Of a stretch of DNA of 52,975 nucleotides, positions 3,176-43,478 are shown piece after piece. The notes beneath the pieces are model-generated. The model was not told the DNA's origin and searched no databases. It saw only the letters and a list, made by a program, of their open reading frames with translations. Numbering within the stretch: position 1 is the stretch's first letter; every line of letters starts with the position of its first letter. A program made the position numbers and the translations under genes. This stretch comes from an uncultured Lachnospiraceae bacterium (GTDB lineage: Bacteria; Bacillota; Clostridia; Lachnospirales; Lachnospiraceae). The stretch is from contig CADBRN010000071.1 of the NCBI GenBank assembly GCA_902797025.1, positions 1 through 52,975 on the forward strand, read 5' to 3'.

Positions 3176-4468
3176 TCACGATACCTTCTTCAGGAATTTC
3201 ATCTCCTCCGCGTTTCCATCTGTGACCATATGATGCAGATCCGCAAGCAGCTCGCCGACCCGGTCCGTCGACTGGTACCAGGACTTGTCGACCTGCCAGA
3301 CATTGCCGTCCTGGACCGCCTTAAACTGACTGAACATCGGGTTCTTGCCGGTCAGATCGCTCATGCCTGTCAGCGGTGTCTCGATGATGGCATTGTAGAC
3401 GAGATAATCTGCGTCCTTCGCGTCCGCATAGAATTTTTCCATCGAGAGGTTGACCGACACGCTGTTGCCGGCGGTATTTTCAAGATCCTTGAAGATATAG
3501 CTGCCGCCGGACATGTTGATCATATTCGGGATGATATCATCTGTCTTGCGGACCGTCACCTGCTGGTTGGAATTGATCGAGAAGAATGCGACGGTTTTGC
3601 CGGTATCCTCGAAATTCTTATAATCCCCGAGGGATGTCAGCTCATCCGCGAAATAATCGGCCGCGGCTTCTTCCTTGCCCATGAGGGCGCCGTACATCTT
3701 GACCCACTCCATTCTTCCGAAAGGATCCGTCTCATAGCTGCAGCGATCGATGAGCACCGGGATCCCGAGACCTTCGATCATCTCTTTCACCTTCGGCGCG
3801 TGAAGAATCATCGTTGATTCGATCGCAAGACCGCAGTCCTTCGAAATCAGCATCTCATAGTCCGGCTCACTGTACTTGCCCGCGAACGTCATTGTTCCGG
3901 CATTGATGGCGTCGATCGGCGCCTGGATGTACCAGCCGTCCCTGTCGACGGATGTCATCGTCACGGAATCCATGCAGCCGAGGGCAGGAAAGAAGCACAT
4001 CGATCCGCTGGCAGCCATGTAAATATTTTTCGGCGGACCCTGTATGACGACAAGATCATCGGAAATCCCCTGCGGCGCTTCCTTTCCTTCGGGAACGATC
4101 AGATAGTTCCCGCCGTCCCTGATGGAGATGATTTTATAATCATCATCATAATAATAGACGGCGAAGTCCTTCGCGTACTGGAGATTCAGTTTTTTCTCAC
4201 AGGTCAGGCCGGATAATTCCGGCGCGTCCCCGAGATCCTCCGTCACGTAGAGTTCCGCTTTTTGTGCGGCGTTTTTTGCGGAAGATGCCGATACAGAAGG
4301 CGCCGATGAAACATCCGCCGTTCCTTTTCCGGAAGCTTCTTCAGAAGATCCCGCCGCGCTCCCTGATACGGCGGAAGAATTTCCCGTGACTGCCGTCCCG
4401 CCCCCGCACGCGCCAAGGGCGAGCGAGGCGGCAAGAACGGCGGCCGCGGCAATTGTTTTGATTTTCAT
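3176..4468 (-). CDS. ABC-type metal-chelate/corrinoid substrate-binding lipoprotein
   Basis: The signal peptide ends in the lipobox LALGAC (Cys21), followed by a Ser/Ala-rich linker to about residue 70. The rest resembles the helical-backbone receptor family (BtuF/FepB/FhuD-like): an N-lobe running from IISIRDGG through PVLIDRCSYETD, then a long bridging helix with EWVKMYGALMGKEE, then a C-lobe with TVAFFSIN, a conserved GGSYIF and a final helix. Length of 430 is normal for a lipoprotein of this group. It starts 18 bases after the giant gene at 4487-8281, whose C-terminus resembles its N-lobe, and both are read from a cobalamin-riboswitch promoter. A corrinoid ligand is therefore likely (inference); heme, cobinamide or a siderophore remain possible. 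No permease or ATPase is adjacent. Confidence 0.85.
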   Translation of the reverse strand: MKIKTIAAAAVLAASLALGACGGGTAVTGNSSAVSGSAAGSSEEASGKGTADVSSAPSVSASSAKNAAQKAELYVTEDLGDAPELSGLTCEKKLNLQYAKDFAVYYYDDDYKIISIRDGGNYLIVPEGKEAPQGISDDLVVIQGPPKNIYMAASGSMCFFPALGCMDSVTMTSVDRDGWYIQAPIDAINAGTMTFAGKYSEPDYEMLISKDCGLAIESTMILHAPKVKEMIEGLGIPVLIDRCSYETDPFGRMEWVKMYGALMGKEEAAADYFADELTSLGDYKNFEDTGKTVAFFSINSNQQVTVRKTDDIIPNMINMSGGSYIFKDLENTAGNSVSVNLSMEKFYADAKDADYLVYNAIIETPLTGMSDLTGKNPMFSQFKAVQDGNVWQVDKSWYQSTDRVGELLADLHHMVTDGNAEEMKFLKKVS

Positions 4469-4486
4469 AAAGCGTCATCCTTCAAA

Positions 4487-7400
4487 TTATTTTTTCTGAT
4501 CCGCATCCTCTGTAGAATCCGTATGGTTTTTCGTATTCAGTGAAGCGATCGCGGCTTTCTTCTCCTGAGCCGTCGCCTTGCTGACGACCTGATTGTAAAG
4601 CTTCAGACCGCTGTCATAGTTTCCGAAAATAACACCGTAGACCTTCAGCCACTCTGCCTTGGCGAGGTCATTCTTCTCGTCCGCGCTGCGGTCGATGATA
4701 AGCGGCATATTAAGCTCGGCCGCCTCATCGATTTCTTTGCTGTAGAGCTTGTTGAACGCGTCCAGATCCTCCGCTTTCTTCGGAAGCAGATTCGAGGAGA
4801 GAACGGCCAGATCTGCCTTCTGTTTCAGAAGGGTCTTCAGATCCCAGTCGTCGGATGCCCCCGCGTAGGTCACCGCATCCTCTTTGGTGTAATCCTTCTC
4901 CATTCTCTTCTTCACGGAATCGACCCGGACATCCTCCGCTTTGATCCCGAGCATGCGGACCGCGCCGATGCTTCCGATCTGATCCAGCACATCAAGCGCT
5001 TCCGCTGAGGCGACGTATGCATTTCCGACCGGCTGGCGGATGATTACCGTTTCCTTGTCAAGACCGGCCGGAACCTCGATTCCTTCCGGCACGACAAGAT
5101 ATTTGACAATATCCTGCTGATATACGTCCGTCGTGGAATTGTCCGCCGCCGGCGACTCTTCCACATCCGATGTGCCGGCCTGCGCTGCGCCATCCTGTGC
5201 CTGTGCGGTTCCGTTTTCCGCATCATCTGCAGTATCTGCATCGCTTCCGGAGTTTTTCGCGCTCTCATCCGCAGCTGTTTTCGCGCTGTCGTCCGCGTCT
5301 TTGTTCGCGCTGTCCTCCTCGTTTTCTCTCGCGGTATCGCTGACCTCATTAATCTCGATCAGATAAATGTCGTCGTCATACGAAAAAATCCTGACATAAT
5401 CGGAATAATTGACCGCGACCTCTCCTTTTGCCGTGAGGCCGGTGATCGCCGGCGCCGTCTCGTCAAACTTCGTCGTGTTCTCGGAAAGGGAAGCGCCCGC
5501 GCTGCTGCCGTCCTTTGTGCCGACATACAGTGTATAGCTGATCCAGTGCGGGGTGGACATCGCCGTCGTCAGAGCCTCGATCGACGTATTCGCGTTCTTG
5601 TTGACCGGGATCGTGAAGGTGTTGGATCCCGAAACTGTCTGCCCGAGGGAACGAACCTGCGAGTAAGAACTCGTTCCGCCGCTCGTCTGTGAGAAATGAA
5701 TCGTCGCGTACAGCTGGCCGTTCTTTTCAAACACGTTCAGGCAGGAAATTCTTGCACGGCCGGAGCCGCCGGACCAGCTGAAGGTATATCCGCTCACCGA
5801 TGCGCTTCCGGACGTCGATCCTTTCGCCGATGTATCCTTTCCTCTTCCATCCGTCTGTTCTCTGCTCTGTCCGGACGTCTGCCCGCTGTTCCGGCCTCCT
5901 GTCTGCGTCCGGCCATCTCCCGCGTTACCACCCTGTGTGTTCCCGCTGTTTTCTTCCGGAGACGGATTGTCGGCGATCGTCGGATCGTCGCTGTGATCCG
6001 CGGTGATCGTTTTCGTGTTCCAGTCAAGGGTCAGTTTCCGCCCGAACCATTTCTGCTCCCTGTCGGAAAGCGCCGCCAGTTTCACCGTATTCTCTGATGC
6101 AGTCACCGGAATGCTGAATTCATACTTCCCGTCGCTGTCCGCAAAGAAACGGATTCTCGATGACACTCTGGATGTGGAGGCTTCCGACGTACTGCCTTTG
6201 TACAGATACTTGTAACCCGTCCCGCCGAGAGTGATAAGGAGCGTCCGGTTTGATCCGGATCCGGTGACAAATGCGGATGTCACCCGGAACATTTTGAAAT
6301 TGTTCACGACCGTCCACTGATTGGAAGCGGTCTTATCCGCCGTAAGTTTCACCGGAACAACCGCGTCGCCGTTTACCGTATATTCGAGCGTCTGCGGCTT
6401 GTAACCGTCCGCCGTCACCGTGACCGTGTACTTTGCGCCGTCTCTGAGCGTAAAACTTCCGTCCGTTTCCGCCGACACAGCCGTTCCGTCGCTTCCGGTC
6501 ACAGTGAACGATGCGCCGCTGACGGGATTGCCGCTCTGATCGGTCGCCGCGAAGGATACTCCCGCCATCTTTGTATCAGATATCGTCTTCCCATCGCCGC
6601 TGGCGGCGGTGACCGTCTTGTTTGCCCAGTCCAAGGTCAGCTTCCGGCTGTACCATTTCTGCTGCTTATTCGACAGCGCCGCCAGATCGAACGTGCTCTC
6701 CTGATCGCTCACCGGAATGTCAAATGTGTATACACCATTCTTATCATAATACGCAATCCTGGAGGACGCTCTTGAAGACGCGGCATCCTTTGTGCTCCCC
6801 TTATACAGGTATTTATAGCCGGTTCCGCTGAGGCTGATCGTCAGCTTCCTTTCAGAACCGGTACCGCTCATCGAAGCGCCGGTCACCGTGAACATTTTCG
6901 CGGTATTCTTGACCGTCCATGGTTCTGCCGTCCCCTCATCCGTGCCAGCAGCCGGGTCGTCCGTTCCGGTCTTCTCATCCGGAAGAGGCGTTCTCTTGCT
7001 TTCATCTACGGTGATCGTGTACTCATACGTCACCCATACGGAACTTGCCGACATCACGCCCGGCACACGGACAGAGAAATGGAAGGATGTACCGATCGGC
7101 ACCGGAACCGTCGCACGGCTGAGATGGTACGTCTTTGAACCGATTGTTTCCGTCCCCACATCTTCTGCCGCGTAGCAGTTGACGCCGGCCGTGCCGGTCT
7201 CCGGATTATATACCTTGTTATTTTCCGCGCCCTTTACGTATCCGATATAGAAATGCGTAGCCGGTGAGGAACTCCGGTATGTGATCGTCGCGAAGGCGTG
7301 ACCGTCTTTGATCCTGACATTGACCGCGCTGATGCCGGTTCCTTTATGCATACCGCCCGCCTTCTTCTCGAACCCCGCGGAATCATATTCTCCGTCAGGC

Positions 7401-8281
7401 TCCGTAGTCGTTCCGATCTCATCGCTGTACGCGTCACTCCCGTTTTGGGAACCGGAATTGCCGGATGCGTCGCTGACCGCGCTGAAGGAGACGGACTGCT
7501 CCTCATCCCCTGCGAATGCCGTCGGATCCTGATTCTGTTTCAGCGCTTTTTCAGCTCTTCCGGAAGCTGCCTGAAGAAGCGGCTGAGTCTTTTCCGTATC
7601 CGGAGCAGGTGTGGAATCCTTTTTTTCCGATTTTACGACGATCGTCAGTTTTTCGCTGGAGACGCCGCCTGCCGTCGCCCATACGTGAGCCGTTCCGGCA
7701 GATTTCAGCGTGAGTTTTCCCTGGGAATTGACGGAAACCACTCCTTCCGCGTCTGAGTGGTAACTCTTCGTCTGCCCCGCTGCTTCGGACGGCAGAATCT
7801 GCGCATCGACCGCATAGGCGGACGAATCGCCCTCTGTCAGAGTGACCGTATGATTGGACGGGATCGGCAACACCGCGCCGTCTTTGCGATACTGAAGCGT
7901 AACGGATGCCACCGCGGCTTCTGTCCCCGATTTCGTTTCGGAACCGTTTCCGGTCTCCGCCGGTGCGGATTTCTCAGACGGGTTCTTCTCTTCCTTCGGA
8001 CTCTCAGCCTCCGGTTTTGCGGAGGATTCATCCACTGCTTTCTCTTCCGTATCCTTTTCTTTTTTCTCTGTTTCCACTGCCTCGTTCTCTGCTTCTGCCG
8101 TTTTCGTCACGAGCGCGGATTCGGATACCGCAGCCTCCGCCGCTTCCTCCGGCTTCTGCGTCTCAAGGGACGAACCGTTCACGGCCGGTTCCGCTGTTTC
8201 CGAAGCCAGAACCGGTGTGCTCATCGACATCGCCATGGCCGCAGACAGCCAGACTGCAAGAAATCTGTTTTTGTTTCTCAT
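4487..8281 (-). CDS. giant secreted multidomain protein: repeated beta domains plus half a substrate-binding protein
   Basis: A 1264-residue exported protein. Residues 1-27 are a signal peptide; 30-120 an acidic Glu/Lys/Ala linker; about 124-217 an Ig-like (Big2-type) domain; about 302-427 a beta-rich domain; 455-553 and 655-755 two close repeats with the pattern KMF-V, YLYKGST, IPV, KWY/KWF and RKLTLDW; about 572-648 a carboxypeptidase-regulatory-like beta domain; 829-925 another beta-rich domain. Residues 940-1235 resemble only the N-lobe of the substrate-binding protein encoded next door (SYDDDIYLIEI, VVPEGIEVP, PLIIDRSADEKND, EWLKVYGVIFGN), interrupted by an acidic Ala/Asp/Ser insert at about 980-1050. 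There is no LPXTG or lipobox, so anchoring is unclear. The start at 8281 follows GAGGAGG by 5 bases. The repeats recur in the lipoprotein at 35329-35919. Ligand binding (corrinoid, heme or related) is inference. Confidence 0.85.
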   Translation of the reverse strand: MRNKNRFLAVWLSAAMAMSMSTPVLASETAEPAVNGSSLETQKPEEAAEAAVSESALVTKTAEAENEAVETEKKEKDTEEKAVDESSAKPEAESPKEEKNPSEKSAPAETGNGSETKSGTEAAVASVTLQYRKDGAVLPIPSNHTVTLTEGDSSAYAVDAQILPSEAAGQTKSYHSDAEGVVSVNSQGKLTLKSAGTAHVWATAGGVSSEKLTIVVKSEKKDSTPAPDTEKTQPLLQAASGRAEKALKQNQDPTAFAGDEEQSVSFSAVSDASGNSGSQNGSDAYSDEIGTTTEPDGEYDSAGFEKKAGGMHKGTGISAVNVRIKDGHAFATITYRSSSPATHFYIGYVKGAENNKVYNPETGTAGVNCYAAEDVGTETIGSKTYHLSRATVPVPIGTSFHFSVRVPGVMSASSVWVTYEYTITVDESKRTPLPDEKTGTDDPAAGTDEGTAEPWTVKNTAKMFTVTGASMSGTGSERKLTISLSGTGYKYLYKGSTKDAASSRASSRIAYYDKNGVYTFDIPVSDQESTFDLAALSNKQQKWYSRKLTLDWANKTVTAASGDGKTISDTKMAGVSFAATDQSGNPVSGASFTVTGSDGTAVSAETDGSFTLRDGAKYTVTVTADGYKPQTLEYTVNGDAVVPVKLTADKTASNQWTVVNNFKMFRVTSAFVTGSGSNRTLLITLGGTGYKYLYKGSTSEASTSRVSSRIRFFADSDGKYEFSIPVTASENTVKLAALSDREQKWFGRKLTLDWNTKTITADHSDDPTIADNPSPEENSGNTQGGNAGDGRTQTGGRNSGQTSGQSREQTDGRGKDTSAKGSTSGSASVSGYTFSWSGGSGRARISCLNVFEKNGQLYATIHFSQTSGGTSSYSQVRSLGQTVSGSNTFTIPVNKNANTSIEALTTAMSTPHWISYTLYVGTKDGSSAGASLSENTTKFDETAPAITGLTAKGEVAVNYSDYVRIFSYDDDIYLIEINEVSDTARENEEDSANKDADDSAKTAADESAKNSGSDADTADDAENGTAQAQDGAAQAGTSDVEESPAADNSTTDVYQQDIVKYLVVPEGIEVPAGLDKETVIIRQPVGNAYVASAEALDVLDQIGSIGAVRMLGIKAEDVRVDSVKKRMEKDYTKEDAVTYAGASDDWDLKTLLKQKADLAVLSSNLLPKKAEDLDAFNKLYSKEIDEAAELNMPLIIDRSADEKNDLAKAEWLKVYGVIFGNYDSGLKLYNQVVSKATAQEKKAAIASLNTKNHTDSTEDADQKK

Positions 8282-8311
8282 CGCTGCCTCCTCTGAAATT
8301 AAAAATGAAAC

Positions 8312-8347
8312 AACAAAAAGTGTGTGCCGCAAAAAAAGCACACACTT
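8312..8347 (-). terminator. riboswitch-controlled intrinsic terminator
   Basis: A perfect 10-bp stem (GCACACACTT / AAGTGTGTGC, 8319-8328 with 8338-8347) is followed on the minus strand by TTTTGTTG. It lies between the cobalamin aptamer and the start codon of the giant gene, the expected place for the expression platform. Confidence 0.8.
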
Positions 8348-8444
8348 CTCAATGATCCTTTGAAAGTCCGGCACGCAAAAAACACCGGCATGATACGGAC
8401 GGAAAAGCTGAAGCCTTCTTCGGAAGCACCACCTTTTGTTTATG

Positions 8445-8617
8445 GATGCGTCAGCAGGTTTCCTGACTTACAGCTCGGACGTAATTTGCGCCTTCTCACA
8501 CCCGCTTGGCCGGATGCAATGACATCATGCAAAACACTTGCTGTTCACAGTGACCGGATCGCTCAGGACTTTCACCTGATTCTCTTTTACCCGCAGATCT
8601 TCGCGGCACTGACCATC
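8445..8617 (-). promoter_or_regulatory. cobalamin riboswitch (aptamer)
   Basis: Reading the minus strand, the core GGTGAAAGTCCTGAGC, then CACTGTGA, and the B12 box AAGTCAGGAAACCTGC appear in the canonical order. The closing stem pairs GATG-GTCAG (8609-8617) with CTGAC-GCATC (8445-8454). The predicted transcription start is about 4 bases upstream. A terminator lies downstream, so cobalamin binding most likely stops transcription of the surface protein and lipoprotein genes. Confidence 0.93.
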
Positions 8618-8627
8618 TTTTCTAACT

Positions 8628-8656
8628 ATTGTAGACGCCTTCCCGGCAATTTTCAA
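8628..8656 (-). promoter_or_regulatory. sigma-A promoter of the riboswitch locus
   Basis: TTGAAA (8651-8656) and TACAAT (8628-8633) on the minus strand are spaced by 17 bases. This places the transcript start at about 8621, immediately before the aptamer. Confidence 0.8.
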
Positions 8657-8690
8657 TACGAGATTCGCCGATTCCGTTCCCCTGCGCGGT

Positions 8691-9737
8691 TCAGCGTGTT
8701 TTTTCACTGAAATCGGTCACGATCGTCCCGTCCGCATGGTACCGCTGATTTCCGAAGTATTTATTGTGCGCATACTCGATGCCGCCCCAGTTCAGCGGTG
8801 TATAAACCTCCGCGATATCCGGAAGATGGACGTCCTTCAGCGCCCAGCGCAGATATTCCTCGGTTCCGGTCCGGTCGACGATGTATCCGATATGCTCCTT
8901 TCCGCCCGGGGAATCGGGATTGATGTAGTGACGGACGTATTCATAGGTGTTCCGGATAATCCGGATGACACTGTCCTCATCCGCCCATTTGATGAAATCG
9001 ACTCCCATCCGCGGATTTTTCTTTCCGGTTCTTCCAAGCAGGGTGATCCGGAAGTATTTTTCAGGACTTCGCGTCCAGGCGAGATTCGGACACGCGTTGA
9101 CGCACTCTCCGCATCCGATGCATTTGTAACTGTCCCGCTCCGGGCGGAAGTGCACTTTTTCAAGGGCATCAACCGATTTGGAACGGCATGCCCTGATGCA
9201 TGCGCCGCAGCTGACGCACCGTTCCGGATCAAGCCTGGGCTCGGTCATTCCCATGATGCCGATATCCCCCATCCGTACTTTCTGGCAGTCATTCGGGCAT
9301 CCGGTCAGCACGATTTTTACATGAAGGTCGTCCGGAAAGATCACCTTGTCAATCTTCTGTGCCAGCGCGGTTGTATCATAACAGGCGTAGGGACAGACGC
9401 GGTTTCCGACGCAGGCGGATACATTTCTTGTCCCTGCGGCCGGATATCCTTCGCCCCGCGCTCTTCCGGTCTGGTTGATCCCGGTGCCGTCTATGATCGT
9501 CTGAAGTTCGCGGTTGACCTCCGGCATCTTTTCAAAGGGAATGCCGGGGATCTCAAACCCCTGCCTGGAAGTGAGATTTACGGTTCCGTTGCCGTACCGC
9601 TCTGCGATTTTCTGAATTTTCCCGAGATACTCCGCCTTCAGCAGTCCTCCCGGCACGCGTACTCTGGAAGAAGTGACACCCCGCACCTTCGTCACGCGAA
9701 ACGCGTTCTTTTTTAATTCCTTTGTATTGATATCCAT
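8691..9737 (-). CDS. asrC: anaerobic sulfite reductase subunit C (siroheme subunit)
   Basis: This is the catalytic subunit that reduces sulfite to sulfide with six electrons. The siroheme/[4Fe-4S] cysteines are visible as the spaced pair C-x5-C (ACVGNRVCPYAC) and, downstream, TGCPNDCQK. Two ferredoxin-type [4Fe-4S] motifs follow: CVSCGACIRAC and CIGCGECVNAC. Length of 348 is close to the family norm (about 337). The start is supported by GGGGG about 6 bases upstream. It is the last gene of asrABC, 12 bases after asrB. Siroheme derives from sirohydrochlorin, which is also the substrate of CbiK encoded 26 kb away. Confidence 0.95.
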   Translation of the reverse strand: MDINTKELKKNAFRVTKVRGVTSSRVRVPGGLLKAEYLGKIQKIAERYGNGTVNLTSRQGFEIPGIPFEKMPEVNRELQTIIDGTGINQTGRARGEGYPAAGTRNVSACVGNRVCPYACYDTTALAQKIDKVIFPDDLHVKIVLTGCPNDCQKVRMGDIGIMGMTEPRLDPERCVSCGACIRACRSKSVDALEKVHFRPERDSYKCIGCGECVNACPNLAWTRSPEKYFRITLLGRTGKKNPRMGVDFIKWADEDSVIRIIRNTYEYVRHYINPDSPGGKEHIGYIVDRTGTEEYLRWALKDVHLPDIAEVYTPLNWGGIEYAHNKYFGNQRYHADGTIVTDFSEKTR

Positions 9738-9749
9738 GTTGATCCCCCG

Positions 9750-10556
9750 TCAATCCACCATCGTCTTGCTCTTTAAATATGGAAATACCGGCCCGTCGAG
9801 ACAGACGTAAACGTTGCCGATCTTGCAATGGCCGCATTTTCCGAGTCCGCAGCACATTTTTCTCTCCTGGGAAAGCCAGATGTTTTCTTCCGGAAGTCCC
9901 AGCTTCAGAAGTCCCGCAACCGTAAACCGCATCATCGGCGGCGGCCCTACGACGATCGCCTTCGTATTTGCCAGATCCTTCGGCGTCAACTCCGGGACGA
10001 CGGCCGTGACAAATCCCTCACGGTATCCGGGCTGCCCCTTCGCGGAATCCAGCGTCATGCGCAGATCGATCCGATCCTTCCAGTACGCCAGATCATCGCG
10101 GAAAAGAATATCATCCGGAGATTTAAATCCTACGACCGCAGAAAGAGATTCCACCTTTTCCGGGTGATGCGCGTAATGATCGATGACGCCGCGCACCGGT
10201 GATACGCCGGTTCCTCCCGCCACGACGATCAGCTCGCTCCCGTCGTAATCATCGAACACAAAACCGTTCCCGTACGGTCCCCGGATCAAAAGTTCCTGTC
10301 CCTCGTACCGCTCGAACACCTCATTTGTGACCACGCCGACTTTGCGGATCGTGAAATCGATCGTATCCGCACTGATGCCGCTGACCGAGATCGGTGCTTC
10401 CCCGTATTTCGGCATGGAAATTTCAAAAAACTGCCCGGGCCGCACCCGCTCCTCCGCATGATCAAAATGCATCCGGAATGTGTACTCCGTCTTCGTATGG
10501 CGGATCACCTTTTCAATCTTCGTGGGAAACGGAATGTAATTATTTGCTGCTGTCAT
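9750..10556 (-). CDS. asrB: anaerobic sulfite reductase subunit B (FAD/NAD-binding)
   Basis: A ferredoxin-NADP reductase-type flavoprotein that passes electrons from NAD(P)H to the siroheme subunit. The FAD-binding beta barrel fills the N-terminal ~100 residues (RPGQFFEIS), the nucleotide-binding fold contains GGTGVSPVRGV, and the C-terminal cysteine cluster CCGLGKCGHCKIGNVYVC binds a [2Fe-2S] centre, as in dihydroorotate dehydrogenase electron-transfer subunits. Length (268) is typical. AAGGAGG lies 9 bases before the ATG, inside the end of asrA, and the two genes overlap by 17 bases, so translation is probably coupled. Confidence 0.95.
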   Translation of the reverse strand: MTAANNYIPFPTKIEKVIRHTKTEYTFRMHFDHAEERVRPGQFFEISMPKYGEAPISVSGISADTIDFTIRKVGVVTNEVFERYEGQELLIRGPYGNGFVFDDYDGSELIVVAGGTGVSPVRGVIDHYAHHPEKVESLSAVVGFKSPDDILFRDDLAYWKDRIDLRMTLDSAKGQPGYREGFVTAVVPELTPKDLANTKAIVVGPPPMMRFTVAGLLKLGLPEENIWLSQERKMCCGLGKCGHCKIGNVYVCLDGPVFPYLKSKTMVD

Positions 10557-11565
10557 GGTCCTGTACCTCCTTCATTCCCTCTTCCAGATGATTGATAATA
10601 TTGGAAAATGAGATATACTCCGGGCAGATGTCGTCGCATCTTCCGCATCCGACACACATCTGATATCCGAACCGCTCTTTGAAATCCAGAACCTTATGGA
10701 GCGTCTTAAACCGCATCCGCTCGCCGTTTTTCTTCCGGTAGGATGCGCCGCCCGCGACGTCCGTGTACCCGTCCACCATGCAGGAGGCCTGTACGCGGCG
10801 TCTCTCGCCGACCTTTCCGCCCGCATCGTAATACATATCCTGCATCGAGAAGCACGTGCAGGTCGGACAGACAAAATTGCATCTTCCACAGTTGATGCAG
10901 CGGCTGTCATACTGATCCCACATGGAGCTCTTTCCCACTTCGAACGTCAGGTTTTCCGGAACCCGGACCTGCACCTTGTTCTCTGACACGCGGCATGGCT
11001 TAACATCAAGCTCCGCCGCTCCTGCCGCGGCGAGAACCGCGCTCCAGTCGTCCCTCCGGCTGTCGAGACGGAACTCTCCGTCCGCCGCGTCGATGCTCAT
11101 GTCGTACTGATCCGCCGCATTGGTGCCCATACTCACACAGAACCCGTTCTCACAGGAGGCGGGACATCCGATCATAACAAACGCGAGGTTGTCCCGTTTC
11201 CGCGCATAATAATAATCCGGATCCCCGTTCTTCATGTAAATCTGATCCATCCTCCGCACCGCCTCAAGATCGCAGCTGCGCAGAAATACCAGACGCTTTC
11301 TGAGCGGAGGCATCGCCTCCTCCACATGATTCTGCGCGAAGTAAAAGAGCGTCTCGGAAGGAGGAAGAACCGTCTCCTTCCAGGAGTATGCGGATTTCAC
11401 CTCAAACTCGATCTCATCCGGTTCCTGCACGACCGCATACCGGACCGCGTCCGTATCGGAAAAACGTCCGCCGCCCGGGAATCGCTTCGGCGCCCAGATG
11501 TCGTATTCCTTTTTCCAATACGAGAACAGTTTCCCAAATTGTTCCCTGCTTGCTACATAGCCCAT
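10540..11565 (-). CDS. asrA: anaerobic sulfite reductase subunit A (Fe-S electron transfer)
   Basis: The N-terminal two thirds resemble the beta subunit family of hydrogenase/AsrA proteins, and the C-terminal third carries two [4Fe-4S] ferredoxin motifs, CINCGRCNFVCP and CVGCGRCDDICP. It relays electrons within the AsrABC complex in the cytoplasm. Length of 341 matches the Salmonella protein closely. It is the first gene of the operon; AAGGAG sits about 8 bases before the ATG. The upstream region holds a Crp/Fnr-type palindrome placed as for a class II activator site, and the divergent gene encodes a Crp/Fnr protein. Confidence 0.95.
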   Translation of the reverse strand: MGYVASREQFGKLFSYWKKEYDIWAPKRFPGGGRFSDTDAVRYAVVQEPDEIEFEVKSAYSWKETVLPPSETLFYFAQNHVEEAMPPLRKRLVFLRSCDLEAVRRMDQIYMKNGDPDYYYARKRDNLAFVMIGCPASCENGFCVSMGTNAADQYDMSIDAADGEFRLDSRRDDWSAVLAAAGAAELDVKPCRVSENKVQVRVPENLTFEVGKSSMWDQYDSRCINCGRCNFVCPTCTCFSMQDMYYDAGGKVGERRRVQASCMVDGYTDVAGGASYRKKNGERMRFKTLHKVLDFKERFGYQMCVGCGRCDDICPEYISFSNIINHLEEGMKEVQDHDSSK

Positions 11566-31610: not shown

Positions 31611-32964
31611 TTCGATGCTTCTCCTTTCGGCAGGCATGATAGAAATTCACCGCAAAAACGGGATTCGCGTAGAAGTGAAAGTGCGGATAACCGGCGTAAA
31701 GCGTCTGCGTGGCCTGAACGCACTTCCAGGTTCTTCCCGAAGCCTTCAATGCAGTGAAGGAATCGCCGTCGTCCTCACAGTCCCAGTGGTGGAACTCATG
31801 TCCCCGGATTTCTTCACCGGAACGGCAGATCATGGTGTCCTGATTTGCTCTCAGTGTGATATACCCGAATCGGGTGAGTTTTCCGGTATCATAACATTTT
31901 CCCGGAAGAAAACCGACCATCGGATGGCTGCCGATCGCTTCGGTCAGATACATAAAGCCCCCGCATTCCGCGATGCACGGAAGTTTCCTCTTCAGTGCGC
32001 TGCGGATGGAGGCAAGCATCCTGCTGTTTCCGGAAAGCGTCTCTGCGTAGAGTTCCGGATATCCGCCTCCCAGATACAGTCCCTGCAGGTCCGGCGGAAG
32101 TTCCCGATCGGCCAGCGGGCTGAAAGGAACCAGCTCCGCCCCCATCTCCCGCAGCGCATCGAGACTGTCTTCATAATAAAAACAAAATGCATTGTCACGG
32201 GCAACACCGATCCGCACCGGTTCATCCTGCCGCGGAAACTGCACCGGATCGCAGGAAACCGGCGCGGCTCCGGCCGCCAGTTCCATCAAACCGTCCAGAT
32301 CAATGGTCCGCTCCGCCTGCTCCGCGAGCATCTGAATTTTTCCCCGAAGTCCCTGTACCTCCGCCGCGGTGACGAGTCCGAGATGACGGCTTTCAAGACG
32401 GCAATCCGGCATGACCGGGAGATACCCCAGCGGCCGTATTTTTCCACCGAAATGGCGCCGGATTTCTCCGGCAAGGGATTGATACGTCATCGCCGTACAC
32501 TGATTCAGAATTACACCGCAGATGTGATTGTCCGGACAGAAATCAAGAAACCCTTTGATTATGGCAAGTACCGAGAGGGATGCTCCCCTCGCGCCCACCG
32601 TCAGCACCACCGGACTCCCGGTAAACTTCGCCACCTCATACGTGCTCGCATCCGGGGATATCAGGCTCATTCCGTCATAGAATCCCATGACTCCCTCGAT
32701 CACGCTGATGTCACGGTCGGAGGCATTTTTCACAAGCAGTGCCTTCATCGTATTTTCCGAAAAGAAAAACGGATCCAGATTCGAACTTTTTGCACCTATG
32801 ATTCTGCTGTGGAACATCGGATCAATATAATCCGGTCCGCACTTGAATGCTCCCACTTTCCGCTTTCTTCGGACCAGCGCCTGAAGTATGGCGCAGGTCA
32901 CGGTCGTCTTGCCGCATCCGCTGTTCGTTCCGGCGATCAGGACTCTGGGAATGACTCGTTTCAT
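31603..32964 (-). CDS. cbiA: cobyrinate a,c-diamide synthase
   Basis: A glutamine-dependent amidotransferase acting on the a and c side chains. The N-terminal P-loop domain begins VLIAGTNSGCGKTTVTCAIL and continues with FKCGPDYIDPMFH; the C-terminal glutaminase domain carries GGGYPELYAE and the nucleophile in IAECGGFMYL, with a late His in HFHFYANP. Length of 453 is normal. It overlaps the ABC ATPase gene upstream by 4 bases and cbiC downstream by 8. CbiA precedes CbiP in the pathway. Confidence 0.95.
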   Translation of the reverse strand: MKRVIPRVLIAGTNSGCGKTTVTCAILQALVRRKRKVGAFKCGPDYIDPMFHSRIIGAKSSNLDPFFFSENTMKALLVKNASDRDISVIEGVMGFYDGMSLISPDASTYEVAKFTGSPVVLTVGARGASLSVLAIIKGFLDFCPDNHICGVILNQCTAMTYQSLAGEIRRHFGGKIRPLGYLPVMPDCRLESRHLGLVTAAEVQGLRGKIQMLAEQAERTIDLDGLMELAAGAAPVSCDPVQFPRQDEPVRIGVARDNAFCFYYEDSLDALREMGAELVPFSPLADRELPPDLQGLYLGGGYPELYAETLSGNSRMLASIRSALKRKLPCIAECGGFMYLTEAIGSHPMVGFLPGKCYDTGKLTRFGYITLRANQDTMICRSGEEIRGHEFHHWDCEDDGDSFTALKASGRTWKCVQATQTLYAGYPHFHFYANPVFAVNFYHACRKEKHRND

Positions 32965-34082
32965 ACCGGCACCTCCGCATCTTTTCCCCGGTAAACCGGA
33001 ATTCCCCGGTCCTCCGCCAGTCTGATCAATTCGGTGTTGTAATGATTCAACGTTCCCGCCGGAGTTCCGGCATCGATCACCGCCTCGCAGGCGGTCAGAA
33101 GATCCGCGGCCTTCCTGAACTGCCGCTCCGTCATCGGCTCGAACGGAGGCGCAGTCACGACATGATCACTGAGTTCTTTTGCGACCTGACAGTCCACATC
33201 ACTCTCAAAAAGAATGCCCGTCGCAAAGGGAATCTTCCGTTTCTGCAGTTCCCGGTACCTGGAAATTCCATGACCGCCTCCGGCGACGACAAAAATCCTT
33301 GGAGGGCCTTCTGGTTTCGTCAGCTCGACACTGCCGAAAAGCAGATTGTACGAGCCGTCCTGCAGCTCATACAACTGCTCGATCGTATGATTTTCCAGAA
33401 TCTCATCCGGCGGACCAAACGCATCGATCGTATCTCCTTTCACACAGAGCAGGTAATCGGAAATCTTCATCGCGAGATCGATCTCATGCAGCGACATAAT
33501 CACTGTCACATTTCTTTGTCCTGCCATCCCCCGGAGGATGTCGAGAAGCTCGATCTTATAGCGGATATCCAGATAAGCGGTCGGTTCGTCGAGCACGATG
33601 ATCTGCGGCTCCTGGCAGATCGCTCTGGCCAACATGATCCGCTGGCGCTGTCCGTCTGAGAGCGTCATAAAATCCCGTCCCGCCAGATCCAGCGCATGTA
33701 CGAGTTCCAGCGCCTCCCGCACCGCTTCGGCATCGCGGGGTGTGAGCTTCCCGAAAGCATTCGTATAAGGATAACGGCCCGTCGCGACGACTTCCGCACA
33801 GGTCATCAGTTCCGGACGGATCCGGTCCGTCAGAACGACCGCCATCTTTTTTGCCATTTCTTTGGGCGACCAGGAGACGATATCCTTCGAACCGATGAAG
33901 ACGGTCCCGGAGATAGTCTCCAGCTGGCGCGTGATCGACTTCAGAATCGTGGATTTTCCGGCTCCGTTCGGTCCGATCAAAGTGAGGATTTTTCCCTTTT
34001 CCAGCTCAATATTGATGTCGTGGATCAGGATTCTCCCATTATATCCGACCGCGAGACCATCGGTTTTGAAATAGTTTTCCAT
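32961..34082 (-). CDS. ABC transporter ATPase (BtuD/FepC-like) with unusual C-terminal domain
   Basis: Residues 1-245 are a standard metal-chelate importer ATPase: Walker A GPNGAGKS (37-44), signature LSDGQ (141-145), Walker B IIVLDEPT (161-168) and H-loop His199. Residues about 258-373 are extra: a segment starting PRIFVVAGGGHGISRYRELQ and ending IPVYRGKDAEVPV, which alternates strands and helices like a Rossmann-type domain. I do not recognise it; the SPC GGGHG loop suggests nucleotide or phosphate binding (inference). The usual FepC/BtuD length is about 250-270. It abuts the permease gene and overlaps cbiA by 4 bases, so import of a corrinoid or a precursor is the likely job. Confidence 0.88.
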   Translation of the reverse strand: MENYFKTDGLAVGYNGRILIHDINIELEKGKILTLIGPNGAGKSTILKSITRQLETISGTVFIGSKDIVSWSPKEMAKKMAVVLTDRIRPELMTCAEVVATGRYPYTNAFGKLTPRDAEAVREALELVHALDLAGRDFMTLSDGQRQRIMLARAICQEPQIIVLDEPTAYLDIRYKIELLDILRGMAGQRNVTVIMSLHEIDLAMKISDYLLCVKGDTIDAFGPPDEILENHTIEQLYELQDGSYNLLFGSVELTKPEGPPRIFVVAGGGHGISRYRELQKRKIPFATGILFESDVDCQVAKELSDHVVTAPPFEPMTERQFRKAADLLTACEAVIDAGTPAGTLNHYNTELIRLAEDRGIPVYRGKDAEVPV

Positions 34083-34083
34083 A

Positions 34084-35214
34084 TCAGTCCTCCATCCCCC
34101 GGCGGCGATTTACCATCATATAAATAACGACCGGGGCACCGAAAACGGAGGTGACCGTTCCGATCGACAGCTCCGTCGGCGCAAAAACCGTCCTCGCGAT
34201 CAGATCACAGAACACGCAGAACACCGCGCCGCAGAGAAACGTGGCCGGAATCATGAAAGACGGTTTCGATGATTTCAGCAGGGAACGTGTAATATGCGGC
34301 ACCGCGATTCCGACAAAGGAGATCGGCCCCGCGATGGCCGTCACGCATGCAGACAGAAGGCTTGAAAGAAGAATCAGCAGAACCCGGAAAGGCCGGACGC
34401 GGATTCCCATGCTCTGCGCGTACCCCTCGCCGAGTGCATAAGCGCCGATCGGCTTCGAAAGAAGGAGTGCGGCGACCGTACCCGGAATACAGACCAGAAG
34501 AGCCGTTCCCACATTCTGCCAGCTTGCCCCGGAAAACGTTCCCATCGACCAGGACGTTAGATTCGCCACATCATGATCGCTCGCAAAGGTGATACAGAAG
34601 TCGGTCACCGCGCCGCAGATGTAGCTGACCATGATGCCGATCACAAGGAGCATGGACATATTCCGGACTTTCTGTGAAAACAGGAGCACCACAGCCGTGA
34701 CGAGCAGCGATCCGATGAAAGCCGCCGCGAGCATGGTGAAGGAGCTGACGCCGGAAAAAAAGCTTCCCAGAAATACGAGGGTGATTCCGACCACCATCTT
34801 CGCTCCGGATGAAATGCCCAGTACAAAAGGTCCGGCGATCGGGTTGCGGAAAAACACCTGCAGCAGATAACCGGACACCGACAGGGCGCCGCCCAGAACT
34901 GCCGCCAGAAGGATCCTCGGAATGCGGATCGTAAAGAGAATCTGACTTTCCGTAGAAGAACCGGTCACAGACTGCAGCTTATCCGCAAAGCCGCCGTTTG
35001 TAAACAGATTTGCAAGTCCGTACCGGATCGCATCCCAGATCATGCGGAACACATCTCCTGCCGCGATCGGGACCGATCCGATGTTCACGTTCAGAAGCAG
35101 TGCGGGAATCAGGAGCGCGATCAGAATGAGAATCACCAGGGTGAAACGGCTCCGGTTTCCGAGACGGATCACCGGTCCCGGCTCTTTTGCGATTTGTGAG
35201 TTACCCGCTTTCAT
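34084..35214 (-). CDS. FecCD/BtuC-family ABC transporter permease
   Basis: A 376-residue protein with about ten membrane helices and the conserved stretches LRIPRILLAAVLGGALSVSG-like (IPRILLAAVLGGALSVSG), NPIAGPFVLGISSGA, GPISFVGIAVPHITR and a C-terminal GAPVVIYMM. Family members import vitamin B12, heme and ferric siderophores. Residues 1-25 form a polar cytoplasmic extension. Only one base separates it from the ATPase gene. There is no substrate-binding protein in this operon; the best partner is the lipoprotein at 3176-4468, which is under the other cobalamin riboswitch. Confidence 0.92.
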   Translation of the reverse strand: MKAGNSQIAKEPGPVIRLGNRSRFTLVILILIALLIPALLLNVNIGSVPIAAGDVFRMIWDAIRYGLANLFTNGGFADKLQSVTGSSTESQILFTIRIPRILLAAVLGGALSVSGYLLQVFFRNPIAGPFVLGISSGAKMVVGITLVFLGSFFSGVSSFTMLAAAFIGSLLVTAVVLLFSQKVRNMSMLLVIGIMVSYICGAVTDFCITFASDHDVANLTSWSMGTFSGASWQNVGTALLVCIPGTVAALLLSKPIGAYALGEGYAQSMGIRVRPFRVLLILLSSLLSACVTAIAGPISFVGIAVPHITRSLLKSSKPSFMIPATFLCGAVFCVFCDLIARTVFAPTELSIGTVTSVFGAPVVIYMMVNRRRGMED

Positions 35215-35249
35215 TATGTCTCCCTTTCTGTCCTGTCTGTGAAAAGATT

Positions 35250-35312
35250 CAGGTGCTATACCAACCGATTGCGCGTTTTCTTAAACAAACCCGCCGGAAG
35301 ATATAGCACCTG
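35250..35312 (-). repeat. 11-bp perfect inverted repeat in the gap before the permease gene
   Basis: CAGGTGCTATA (35250-35260) and TATAGCACCTG (35302-35312) pair perfectly across a 41-base loop. It is the only sizeable hairpin inside the cobalamin operon, located between the small lipoprotein and the permease. The AATCTTTTC that follows is a poor U tract, so an RNA-processing or partial-termination element setting stoichiometry is possible. Confidence 0.55.
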
Positions 35313-35328
35313 ATCGAATCATTGAAAA

Positions 35329-35919
35329 TCAGCCGGCAGCTTGATCTTCTGCCGGTGTCGGATTAGATACCCGGACCTTATGGCTGTACCATTTTCCCTT
35401 GGTGCCCACAAGCGCCAGATCAAACTCCTGATCCAGGGCCGGAACCGGTACGTCGAATCCGTAAACCTCCTCCGTCGTTCCGTCGTCGTACTTCACGGTA
35501 TCGGTCGTAGGCTCGAGAAGCTTCGCGCCTTCCTTCTGCGCATCCTCCGCAGTGCCTTCGAACAGATTGACGATGTTTTCAGAAGCGAGACTGATATGGA
35601 TCGTCATCACTCCGTCCCTGACCGTTAGTTTTCCCTTTCCGTCCATCGCCTCATTGACGTGAAACATCTTGCTGTCCGTCGTAAAATCCGCGTCGTACGT
35701 GCCATCCGCCAGTTCCGCGGCATCTGCTGCCGACGATGAGGCTGCCGCGCCGGTGACATCCGCCGGTGCTGCGGCTTCTGTTACCGACGATGAGGCCGCC
35801 GCGCCGGAGCCGGAAACGGACGAACTTTCCGCTTTCGATCCGCAGGCCGCAACACCGAGACAAAGCCCTGCGGCAAGTGCCGCCGCGGCGAACCGTTTGA
35901 TCATTCTCTTTTGAATCAT
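35329..35919 (-). CDS. small lipoprotein with one KMF/KWYS beta domain
   Basis: A 196-residue lipoprotein: lipobox GVAAC (Cys26), a Ser/Ala-rich linker to about residue 70, then one domain of about 110 residues. The domain shares with the giant protein at 4487-8281 the ordered pattern SKMFHV, ISL, LFEGTAEDA, FDVPVP, FDLAL and GKWYSHKV. The size and the beta pattern with aromatic residues at both ends recall heme-binding NEAT domains, but I cannot prove homology. It lies between cbiK and the permease gene. The start at 35919 has GGAGGAG about 10 bases upstream. A role as a surface or membrane-proximal ligand relay is inference. Confidence 0.8.
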   Translation of the reverse strand: MIQKRMIKRFAAAALAAGLCLGVAACGSKAESSSVSGSGAAASSSVTEAAAPADVTGAAASSSAADAAELADGTYDADFTTDSKMFHVNEAMDGKGKLTVRDGVMTIHISLASENIVNLFEGTAEDAQKEGAKLLEPTTDTVKYDDGTTEEVYGFDVPVPALDQEFDLALVGTKGKWYSHKVRVSNPTPAEDQAAG

Positions 35920-35948
35920 TTTCGATATTCTCCTCCTGCGGCACACAT

Positions 35949-37187
35949 TCAGCCGTTGATCGCGGTGCCTGTGTGCGCGACGTAAATGCTCTGCACATCC
36001 GGAAGCTCTCCGAGACCTGCGATCTGGCAGTCCACGCTGTCAAAATTGCCGGATGCCGTAAACTGACTGTACCAGGATTCCGGATCATCTTTTCCCGCCA
36101 TGTCATTGTTCGCATGATCCCCTGCCACGACCATCAGCGGACGAAGCACCACTTTTTTATAACCGGCCTGTTTCACCTTGTCAATGACTGCGGTGCACGC
36201 GGTATCTTCCGGCTTGCCCTCGACCGTTCCGATGAAAACATTGGAATATCCGAGATTTTCCATCTGCGTCTGCATCTGATCGTACGTAATCGCAGCTTCA
36301 TGCGAGGTGCCGTGGCCCATAAACACGAAAGCGGTTCCGTCATTTGCCGCCGCATCAAGGGAATCATAGCCTGCCGTTTTATACGCAGCTGCTGTAATCG
36401 CCTCGGCAACTGCCTTCTTGTCATCATTGATCGCGCCTGCATCCTTTCCGACTTCGCCAAGAAGCGGCTCCGCGATCTTCACCGACTCGAACTTATCCTT
36501 ATATTTGTTTACCGCTTCGGTCAGCTCATCGTACTCAGCGCCGTGCATCAGATGGGTCGGCTGAACGACAAGATTCTTGACCCCGTTGTCCACTGCACGC
36601 TGAAGTGCCTGATCCATATTGTCGATCTTCTCACCGTCCCGCGCCTGAACGTGGTTGATGATAATCTGAGCGGTGAAAGCTCTCCGGACGGACCAGTCCG
36701 GGTATGCCGCCTGCAGCGCATTCTCGATGCCGCCGATATCCTTCACACGGCTGTCGTTGAACGAGGTGCCGAAACTGACAACCAGAAGCTCATTTTCACC
36801 GATATCATCGCCGTTTCGCGGATCATCCGCAGAAGCATCTCCGGTATCTCTCCCGAAATAATCCGGATCCGCATTTTCTCCGGAAACCAGTTCCTTCTGT
36901 GCGTCTGTCAGAGCATCCCACGCTTTTTTTGCTTCTTCACACTGTGCGTCCGTATTATCCGTCCTTTCCTGAACATAAATCGCATCGATCAGATCCGCCA
37001 CATGATCCGCTGCCGCCTGATCCGCACTGACTGCACCGGACGATGCCGAGACGCTTGATGTCGATTCCGGCACAGACTTTGATCCGGATACCGCTGAAGC
37101 GGAGCTGCCTGTCGCGCTGCTCCCGCATCCGGCGAGCATTCCTGCCAATACCACAGAACACAATAATACCGCTGCTGGTTTTCTCAT
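35949..37187 (-). CDS. cbiK: lipoprotein-anchored sirohydrochlorin cobaltochelatase
   Basis: The 412-residue product has a signal peptide ending in the lipobox MLAGC (Cys21), a Ser-rich linker, a short helical domain (about residues 55-100, with KKAWDALTDAQKELVSG), and then a CbiK chelatase domain from about residue 130 (ELLVVSFGTSFNDSR). Candidate metal-binding residues are the His of THLMHGAE and of VAGDHANND and a Glu in KIAEPLL, matching the His-Glu-His set of CbiK. Cytoplasmic CbiK is about 260 residues, so an N-terminal export module has been added. Exported CbiK is known in Desulfovibrio, where it also binds heme. It is the first gene after the riboswitch; the start at 37187 follows GGAGGAG by 8 bases. 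Confidence 0.92.
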   Translation of the reverse strand: MRKPAAVLLCSVVLAGMLAGCGSSATGSSASAVSGSKSVPESTSSVSASSGAVSADQAAADHVADLIDAIYVQERTDNTDAQCEEAKKAWDALTDAQKELVSGENADPDYFGRDTGDASADDPRNGDDIGENELLVVSFGTSFNDSRVKDIGGIENALQAAYPDWSVRRAFTAQIIINHVQARDGEKIDNMDQALQRAVDNGVKNLVVQPTHLMHGAEYDELTEAVNKYKDKFESVKIAEPLLGEVGKDAGAINDDKKAVAEAITAAAYKTAGYDSLDAAANDGTAFVFMGHGTSHEAAITYDQMQTQMENLGYSNVFIGTVEGKPEDTACTAVIDKVKQAGYKKVVLRPLMVVAGDHANNDMAGKDDPESWYSQFTASGNFDSVDCQIAGLGELPDVQSIYVAHTGTAING

Positions 37188-37264
37188 CTGTCTTTCTCCT
37201 CCTCTTACAAAACAGAAACGAAACACTCACGGGAAACCAGCAGGATAAAAATCGGATCACACCA

Positions 37265-37300: not shown

Positions 37301-37378
37301 AGTAGTCGCGACCGATATCAAATCATCGTTTTCATACTGCCAGTTACTCGTGGCACGAGCAGATTTCTCTGCTCCGTA

Positions 37379-37544
37379 TACAGTCTGGCAGGTTTCCTGG
37401 CTTCCGGATTTTTTTCACACACTCCGCCTTCCCGCTTTCGCAGTGACTGATCTGGAGCATATTTCCGGTACACAGTGACGAGTTCGCACAGGATTCACAC
37501 CTGTTTCCCTATTATCCGGATAATAATCCGGCACCCGACTGTTT
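37379..37544 (-). promoter_or_regulatory. cobalamin riboswitch of the cobalamin operon
   Basis: Minus-strand reading gives GGGTGCCGG, GGTGTGAATCCTGTGC, GTCACTGTG, TGCGAAAGCGGGAAGG and the B12 box AAGCCAGGAAACCTGCC in canonical order. The closing stem pairs AAACAGTC with GACTGTAT. A hairpin with a GAAA loop (37357-37374) and an intrinsic terminator follow. It should switch off the operon when cobalamin is plentiful. Confidence 0.96.
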
Positions 37545-37560
37545 ATTAGATACGCGAATC

Positions 37561-41454: not shown

Positions 41455-41540
41455 AAATACTTCCTCATATCTGCTCCCCTCCTCCGCGGTTTTATCTGAC
41501 GCCGCAGACCGGGCGATGTCTGCTCCGATCCACGCGTCGG

Positions 41541-43352: not shown

Positions 43353-43367
43353 CTGTTTTCCTCCCGT

Positions 43368-43398
43368 AAAAAAAGTATGCACCCCAGAGCGTGCATAC
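43368..43398 (-). terminator. attenuator terminator in the cbiM leader
   Basis: GTATGCAC (43375-43382) and GTGCATAC (43391-43398) form a perfect 8-bp stem followed on the minus strand by seven T residues. It ends 15 bases before the cbiM start codon and lies downstream of a predicted promoter, so it must be regulated for cbiM to be expressed. Confidence 0.85.
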
Positions 43399-43446
43399 CT
43401 TCCTGCGATGTCTTTTGACAGCAATCCGCCGCTTTCGCACGGCACA
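43399..43446 (-). promoter_or_regulatory. structured leader of cbiM, class unknown
   Basis: Between the predicted transcription start and the attenuator the RNA can form two small hairpins (GCCG-TGCGAAAG-CGGC and TGTC-AAAA-GACA). No B12 box is present, so it is not a cobalamin riboswitch. A metal- or corrinoid-responsive element or a leader-peptide device is possible; the class is not assignable by eye. Confidence 0.45.
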
Positions 43447-43449
43447 GCC

Positions 43450-43478
43450 ATTATATCATGGCACTTTTTATTTTTCCA
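43450..43478 (-). promoter_or_regulatory. promoter of cbiMQO
   Basis: TGGAAA (43473-43478) and a perfect TATAAT (43450-43455) are spaced by 17 bases. The -35 lies inside the 3' end of the PrsW-like gene. Confidence 0.7.

Follow-up and report, generated by a model that had tools for sequence, protein, structure and literature searches.

The window analysed here is the whole 52,975-nucleotide stretch of contig CADBRN010000071.1 (assembly GCA_902797025.1) from an uncultured Lachnospiraceae bacterium. Our subject is the open reading frame (ORF) at 4487-8281 of its minus strand, which encodes a giant exported protein, P0001, and the gene that begins 18 bases downstream of it, which encodes a complete substrate-binding protein (SBP), P0002. 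P0001 follows a cobalamin riboswitch and joins domains resembling the NEAT family to one lobe of an SBP and, judged from their sequences, many gut and rumen Lachnospiraceae encode large riboswitch-controlled secreted proteins in which NEAT-like domains are joined to half a receptor. The half-SBP looks like a docking piece in a hitherto undescribed corrinoid or cobalt-tetrapyrrole uptake system. The features of the locus are, in the order of transcription:

8628..8656, minus strand: promoter-like site TTGAAA-17-TACAAT (10 of 12 consensus matches, pattern match only)
8435..8628, minus strand: cobalamin riboswitch aptamer (Rfam RF00174, 83.4 bits, E 4e-19)
8314..8351, minus strand: terminator-like hairpin in the interval between aptamer and ATG (15 pairs, 5 GC, T-rich tail after it)
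4487..8281, minus strand: giant exported NEAT-like/half-SBP protein P0001 (ORF of 1264 amino acids)
8201..8281, minus strand (residues 1-27): Sec signal peptide without lipobox (from the sequence, boundary by eye)
7622..7906, minus strand (residues 126-220): Ig-like domain (phmmer 1e-4 to the Big_2 region of the protein at 4306-9093 of locus L035)
6995..7408, minus strand (residues 292-429): diverged STP-type NEAT-like domain (STP profile)
6599..6937, minus strand (residues 449-561): KMF-type NEAT-like domain 1 (phmmer to KMF domain 2, 5e-39; boundaries by KMF profile)
6344..6544, minus strand (residues 580-646): carboxypeptidase-regulatory-like domain (PF13620 2.2e-7, 31.6 bits, just below the cut-off of 32.3)
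5993..6337, minus strand (residues 649-763): KMF-type NEAT-like domain 2 (phmmer to KMF domain 1, 1e-38; mostly beta AlphaFold2 model)
5489..5815, minus strand (residues 823-931): STP-type NEAT-like domain (alignment with 59 relatives; mostly beta AlphaFold2 model)
4556..5482, minus strand (residues 934-1242): half SBP, N-lobe and inter-lobe helix only (phmmer, profile alignment, AlphaFold2 model, Foldseek)
5111..5350, minus strand (residues 978-1057): acidic 80-residue insert in the half-lobe (23 D/E, 4 K/R)
4835..4837, minus strand: Lys1149, at the place of a permease-docking Glu of full SBPs (alignment of halves with full SBPs)
3176..4468, minus strand: complete SBP lipoprotein P0002 (PF01497 1.5e-24)

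The succession of promoter-like site, aptamer, hairpin and ATG has the layout of a putative transcription-attenuation riboswitch. The start ATG at 8281 is preceded by gaggagg, and a longer alternative start, GTG at 8374, would read through the terminator-like hairpin. Promoter-like and terminator-like sites were called by consensus match only, with seven of the former in the region against a mean of 3.2 in shuffles, and 15 of the latter against a mean of 6.5.

A first-pass annotation of this DNA had proposed a cobalamin riboswitch ahead of an exported protein of 1264 residues, and within that protein an Ig-like domain, two close KMF...KWY repeats (residues 455-553 and 655-755), further beta domains (302-427 and 829-925) and only the N-lobe of a receptor (940-1235) with an acidic insert, the complete receptor following 18 bases downstream; all of this architecture was borne out. 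The two repeats agree in 60 of 101 columns, an identity of 59%. Pfam gave no match for the Ig-like domain itself, which is recognised through the Big_2 region of its relative. The two beta domains are related to each other, the STP profile matching residues 292-429 at 1.7e-6 on the cut-out and at 3.2e-5 in the whole protein (two-sequence search). The seeds of the profiles used for domain boundaries contained domains of the window itself (KMF, with KMF domain 1 among them, STP and half), and residues 292-429, which lie outside the STP seed, gave the only independent match of that search. The half-lobe matches the N-lobe of the complete SBP at 1e-13 by phmmer, and a profile built from five halves aligned with one built from 92 full SBPs at 2.9e-38, while a profile search returned no match to an SBP C-lobe anywhere in P0001. 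An AlphaFold2 model of residues 641-1264 (60-row alignment, mean predicted local distance difference test, pLDDT, of 82) shows a half-lobe that is predicted well and, ahead of it, two domains that are mostly beta, and a Foldseek search with it placed class III SBPs on top (CeuE 5.2e-5; BtuF 5ysc 2.9e-3).

Hhalign relates the KMF family to the STP family (98%, 1.5e-13), and both approach NEAT. At E<=0.01 the Pfam NEAT family (PF05031) matched nine of 60 KMF members (best 1.3e-4) and 16 of 60 STP members (best 1.7e-6); five single-protein scores ranged from 18 to 24.8 bits, below the gathering cut-off of 32.8 bits, so that NEAT membership by that cut-off is not reached where scores were shown. 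The STP profile matched PDB entries 3sik (E 0.035) and 3sz6 (E 0.04), which we take to be NEAT structures, and in hhalign comparisons with five NEAT segments STP reached 78% over 43 columns and KMF 30% over 42, in both cases at the start of the domain, with 0.1% for the half-lobe and 0.3% for the SBP as controls. The comparison with the NEAT fold that the first-pass annotation had called for suggested at most a weak likeness, and on these sequence comparisons the domains may be called, weakly, NEAT-like rather than NEAT. The matches of KMF to PDB sequences were set aside as antibodies and other likely chance matches. One NEAT-like protein, at L036 13006-17988, has 1660 residues, its own cobalamin riboswitch, and FMN-binding and leucine-rich-repeat matches.

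How widespread is this arrangement? A five-row profile of the half matched (E<=8.2e-53) in at least 20 of the 299 sampled genomes of the window's family, in frames of 279-1821 residues; four of those 20 genomes (G000, G003, G014 and G030) had supplied profile rows, and the next matches, at E>=7.1e-29, were mostly full SBPs. The count is a lower bound because the half of G213, matched only at about 5e-14, fell below this gap; its protein (L183) ends in the half. A wider search with a 46-row profile (E<=1e-30), covering 295 genomes from the order and 291 from the class, gave one clear half candidate outside the family, in G667 (807-residue frame, match split in two), the remaining matches being a 941-residue frame in G517 and others in frames that span 222-657 residues. 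Among the carriers are Acetitomaculum ruminis DSM 5522 and Faecalicatena contorta ET55. P0001 itself, used as a query against genome contigs, returned no match.

The gene neighbourhood of the halves is conserved. Eighty named loci had been fetched via the SBP, so its presence beside their halves partly reflects selection. For 22 halves the half or the giant protein itself had served to fetch the locus (the window, L034, L035, L036, L038 and L167-L183, of which L172, L174, L176 and L181 recur among the named loci), and a full SBP ORF follows within 300 bases in all 22. Across all half ORFs it follows in 53 of 59, and in the other six (L060, L067, L076, L085, L093, L119) the SBP was missed by ORF calling, the tblastn SBP match by which the locus was fetched beginning just after the end of the half or passing it. 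The two marks of a BtuFCD-type importer, cobalamin riboswitch control and BtuC/BtuD partners, were found at the majority of loci: 35 of 42 testable half proteins have a cobalamin riboswitch on their own strand no more than 6 kb upstream (26 of them within 700 bases), and of 53 testable half loci 41 have BtuC or BtuD in the 5 kb downstream of the half, two further loci being too near a contig end. The linkage to cobalamin riboswitches, whose absence from relatives the first-pass annotation would have counted against its proposal, is therefore conserved. Two operon forms recur: riboswitch, CbiK, KMF/STP, SBP, BtuC and BtuD, without a half, and riboswitch, a series of KMF/STP domains ending in STP and half, then SBP, BtuC and BtuD.

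The riboswitch count covers 55 half proteins after duplicate removal, 13 of them too near the upstream contig end, and the direction of every gene between riboswitch and half was left unchecked. Duplicates from the same genome (L172, L174, L176, L181) were removed from the half counts, and L089 and L116 also from the operon survey and the anchor census. Riboswitches in the named loci were found by a consensus scan only, which counted as many sites as Rfam did in 37 of 41 regions and one fewer in the other four, recovered 31 of 35 Rfam sites (assuming the sites to be the same) and found none in 1.02 Mb of base-shuffled sequence. Of 22 regions of relatives that had been fetched because of a protein match (L034-L056, leaving aside L054, fetched for its riboswitch), 18 contain RF00174 by Rfam alone, as do 12 of 17 regions around halves, the site in L173 serving another gene.

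The transporter genes of the window's genome are divided between two operons: the SBP is in the first riboswitch operon, which has no permease, and BtuC and BtuD are in a second one (32961-37226), which has no SBP. The features of this second operon, and the cobalt importer genes of the window, are:

37370..37553, minus strand: second cobalamin riboswitch (RF00174, 99.3 bits)
35949..37226, minus strand: exported CbiK-like lipoprotein (PF06180 8.9e-72; lipobox)
35329..35946, minus strand: P0003, a lipoprotein with a single KMF domain (phmmer/Pfam; behind the second riboswitch)
34084..35214, minus strand: BtuC-like permease, FecCD (PF01032 1.1e-78)
32961..34082, minus strand: BtuD-like ATPase (PF00005 2e-29)
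42330-43487: CbiM
41541-42290: CbiQ
40747-41544: ATPase of the cobalt importer

The full SBP has what defines class III SBPs: two lobes, one joining helix and one docking Glu in each lobe. These residues, Glu205 and Glu344 of P0002, align by profile with Glu72 and Glu202 of Escherichia coli BtuF, and an alignment with 8b7x supports the equivalence of the docking motif. One paper names Glu74 and Glu202 of BtuF as forming salt bridges to Arg56 of BtuC (PMC3741162), and we take this Glu74 to be our Glu72 because the nearby Glu in the fetched sequence is residue 72; another pairs E94 and E231 of BhuT with R84 of BhuU (PMC5136619).

Would these loci then constitute a heme or iron system like Isd that is merely regulated by B12? 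The NEAT-like domains speak for this, as do the appearance of IsdE (2q8p) and Lmo2184 among the PDB profile matches of P0002 and of heme SBPs in its Foldseek list. Against it, the AlphaFold2 model of P0002 (pLDDT 95.6) finds BtuF (5ysc, 5.7e-13) sixth by fold, and cobalamin riboswitches stand in the same operons as CbiK and, in the window, as cbi genes. We consider a heme or iron system unlikely.

What the half-lobe has lost and kept was judged from an alignment of 51 halves with 97 full SBPs, numbered here by P0002; halves shorter than 200 residues (L078, L084) were left out of this alignment, of the trees and of the BtuC/BtuD count, and two halves labelled N-lobe by profile (L090, L119) were added in a set of 53. 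Trp179, present in 97 of 97 full SBPs, remains in one of 51 halves; Met220 (97 of 97) is Glu or Asp in 36 of 51 halves, and His223 (95 of 97) is Pro in 42. Pro225, near-fixed in full SBPs, is lost, and Glu217 and Tyr199 remain in only ten and 20 of the 51 halves. By homology with class III SBPs, the residues lost probably line the ligand pocket. Kept by halves and full SBPs alike are Pro126, Pro132, Gly197, Glu246, Glu254, Trp255 and Tyr259. The docking residue Glu205, Glu in 97 of 97 full SBPs, is Lys or Arg in 47 of 53 halves (Lys 38, Arg 9, Ala 4, Gly 1, Asn 1). Halves and full SBPs are each conserved, but with different classes of residue, in six columns (conservation thresholds 85% in full SBPs, 75% in halves), and that of Glu205 is the sole charge reversal among them; by conservation it ranks 57th of the 261 columns of the halves, which makes it well, not extremely, conserved. 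Since the lobe fold is kept, the residues conserved in full SBPs are lost and the docking charge is reversed, the half-lobe most likely binds a protein rather than a ligand. It is homologous to SBPs in fold and, lacking the second lobe, the conserved residues and the docking Glu, no working member of class III SBPs.

An alternative, that the half-lobe is an open ligand holder which presents a corrinoid to the full SBP or shares it with the latter, would suit the retained N-lobe fold and the complete SBP next door. The residue losses just listed tell against it, and we think it quite improbable. The first-pass annotation had raised this idea of a half-lobe that itself holds ligand, which the missing residues disfavour, together with that of pairing with the C-lobe of another protein, in support of which nothing was found.

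As a second alternative, the half-lobe might be left over from an STP-SBP fusion, decaying and without a present role. Full STP-SBP and KMF-STP-SBP fusions do exist, the halves of L038 and L084 lie in short separate ORFs, and L094 (1983-4778) encodes KMF, STP, half and full SBP in a single ORF, its half apparently, by eye, without a central stretch, for which reason the fusion was set aside as a template for the complex of half and SBP. Decay is hard to reconcile with the constraint seen: Glu246 is kept in 98% of halves and Trp255 in 51 of 51, and there are positions specific to halves, Lys/Arg103 (49 of 51), Lys/Arg137 (47 of 51) and Asp/Glu245 (45 of 51). Nearly all halves end at a shared point past the inter-lobe helix, and they carry an insert of median 59 residues (22-99), net negative in 50 of 51, where 94 of 97 full SBPs have two residues. 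All 53 halves are moreover parted from the 97 full SBPs by one branch, with a support of 99 in the SH-like approximate likelihood ratio test (SH-aLRT, quick method), and a smaller tree of 51 halves and 50 full SBPs, which omits 47 of the 97 that the larger one takes in, has the same split at 100. Several halves form long rows in the tree (L183, L038, L080, L119, L093), and a single origin of the halves is a possibility. A remnant is, in our judgement, very unlikely. That P0001 is an ordinary adhesin or stalk protein with an incidental B12 link, as its Ig-like and carboxypeptidase-regulatory-like spacers might suggest, we regard as highly implausible given that the neighbourhood of SBP, BtuC/BtuD and riboswitch is conserved across many genera.

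We are thus led to a reading to which we give about an even chance, that these proteins form the surface arm of a corrinoid-type uptake system under cobalamin riboswitch control. Outside the membrane, the secreted NEAT-like array would capture its ligand, a corrinoid or a cobalt tetrapyrrole akin to one, and pass it on to the SBP lipoprotein of the adjoining gene, which would feed BtuCD. The half-SBP, a former SBP N-lobe now serving as a docking module, would hold the otherwise unanchored array at the SBP or the transporter. What is bound, how it is captured and passed on, and where the half docks are inferred, and as docking partner the adjacent full SBP is likeliest from the gene order. The corrinoid or tetrapyrrole capture device of the first-pass annotation is supported by the riboswitch linkage, the BtuC/BtuD genes, the NEAT-like domains and the fusions of CbiK to KMF described below.

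That the array is otherwise unanchored is suggested by a heuristic census, omitting proteins less than 100 bases from a contig end, in which 43 of 44 half proteins have neither a lipobox nor a tail transmembrane segment; by the same heuristic 35 of 51 small NEAT-like proteins have a lipobox or tail anchor and 16 have neither, a large contrast. No LPxTG motif was found in the census proteins. The idea that the half replaces a membrane anchor is a mere lead, as some KMF-STP proteins without a half equally lack an anchor.

Several observations weigh against the proposed surface arm. Of 79 SBPs the anchor heuristic recognises only 51 as lipoproteins, two of its 44 half proteins (L038, L084) are fragments, and several half-less KMF-STP proteins of Blautia-like genomes also lack an anchor, so that the half is not needed for secretion. 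The window's own KMF1 and STP domains have no Pfam NEAT match at E<=0.01, and an IsdH chain (6tb2_D) is a poor fold match to the model of residues 641-1264 (Foldseek rank 49, E 8.2e-3, probability 0.51, root-mean-square deviation 21.3). Seven of the 42 testable half proteins have no detected riboswitch, and 12 of 53 loci, the window included, have no BtuC/BtuD within 5 kb. The alignment of P0002 with BtuF has a low hhalign probability, 0.7%, though the motif agrees. The case for docking on the SBP is built from the order of the genes and the logic of the charges, and in six of 53 halves the docking place is occupied by neither Lys nor Arg. The Lys could be plain inheritance, yet halves differ at a median of 60% of core positions. 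Nor do the SBP columns that split half-paired from unpaired SBPs reach significance on the tree: Met230, tried as an interface with the half (49 of 49 paired against ten of 48 unpaired SBPs), failed this control, the independent pairs being too few (five on starred branches, with a median p of 0.5).

The second operon raises a further question: does part of corrin synthesis run outside the membrane? The window's CbiK lipoprotein is the only PF06180 match in its genome (G000, assembly 90% complete) and holds its only PF01903 match, and beside it runs a set of cbi genes (CbiA, C, D, F, G/H, J-E-T, B and P). An exported CbiK as the only CbiK/CbiX-type cobaltochelatase found in this genome hints at tetrapyrrole traffic outside the membrane. 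In eight of 13 checked genomes (G000, G002, G006, G008, G013, G027, G033 and G053; completeness 85% for G002 and 60% for G027) the only CbiK adjoins NEAT-like genes, and the lipobox scan flags it in seven of these eight, G006 showing LCSC by eye. Four of the 13 have further CbiK copies (G003, G029, G031, G036) and G030 has a single copy elsewhere; CbiD is present in 13 of 13, the 16 CbiX matches listed fall without exception within CbiK genes, and CobN was found in none of the 13. Across the fetched loci, 26 of 50 CbiK-like ORFs (duplicates included) pass the lipobox scan, and of the others several have, by eye, a plain signal peptide and the short ones look cytosolic. CbiK and KMF are fused in six ORFs (L046, L088, L099, L108, L110 and L129), that of L110 with a 49-residue CbiK piece only, and in L195 a frame that looks CbiK-like by eye also matches Pfam NEAT.

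In a bolder scheme, a tetrapyrrole such as sirohydrochlorin would be exported, the surface lipoprotein CbiK would insert cobalt into it, the NEAT-like domains would catch the product, and SBP and BtuCD would re-import it; the Lys or Arg at the docking-Glu place of the half would mimic the permease Arg and park the full SBP at the capture array until its move to BtuC. The candidates for the export step are an ABC-2 pair and a membrane KMF-STP protein that lie among early tetrapyrrole genes: on contig C63 of the window's genome the KMF-STP protein with a C-terminal membrane helix (L052 4573-5790) stands between a tetrapyrrole methylase and the ABC-2 pair, precorrin/heme genes coming next, with porphobilinogen deaminase and HemD genes in the neighbourhood, and L037, L053 and L070 have, by eye, a set of this kind too. 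The window's CbiK scores 192 bits, below the NCBIfam equivalog cut-off of 400, which speaks against exported cobalt insertion, and insertion exclusively outside is weakened by the cobalt importer genes of the window (CbiM, CbiQ and their ATPase) and by the genomes that hold both kinds of CbiK. We hold this scheme to be a long shot.

The surface arm that we favour shares parts with several known systems. As in Isd heme uptake, surface NEAT-like domains stand ahead of a class III SBP and a FecCD-type permease. Isd has sortase and Fur features, whereas here there is cobalamin riboswitch control, CbiK, a half-SBP domain, no LPxTG found, and domains below the Pfam NEAT cut-off where scores were shown. 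With the BtuF-BtuCD importer the loci share an SBP of BtuF fold, both docking Glu residues and the BtuC/BtuD genes; they differ by the extra NEAT-like arm and the half-lobe and, in the window, by the split over two riboswitch operons. BtuG and BtuH of Bacteroides, in a different envelope and with different domain types, likewise achieve surface B12 capture ahead of a transporter; they are absent from the top 50 fold matches of the 641-1264 model, most of which concern the SBP lobe. Desulfovibrio has a periplasmic CbiK (CbiKP), also outside the cytoplasm, but the CbiK seen here is a lipoprotein and in the six ORFs is joined to a KMF domain. A search of PMC7689651 for CbiKP gave no mention of it.

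Titles and the beginnings of abstracts listed from the open-licence literature, those on corrinoid or cobamide uptake in Firmicutes or Lachnospiraceae included, contained no description of a NEAT-cobalamin or NEAT-corrinoid system, of a link between CbiK and NEAT or of half SBPs; in that material, none was found for NEAT with corrinoid or cobamide among the matches listed (best 15 of 774), nor for CbiK with NEAT among the matches listed (best 12 of 22). Extracellular corrinoid capture by Gram-positive gut and rumen bacteria is in our assessment poorly described, and these loci provide a concrete candidate for it in named strains. They also offer a case of an SBP lobe turned into a non-receptor, with a prediction at the level of single residues, and the exported CbiK makes the site of cobalt insertion open to test.

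Two further observations concern the surroundings of the riboswitches. Directly upstream of the first, at 8691-11565 of the window, lies a sulfite-reductase-like set (NIR_SIR, NAD-binding and 4Fe-4S subunits), and possible sirohaem use beside the corrinoid operon may or may not matter. A third cobalamin riboswitch of the genome (L054 2828-3009) stands ahead of genes that look by eye like those of ethanolamine utilisation.

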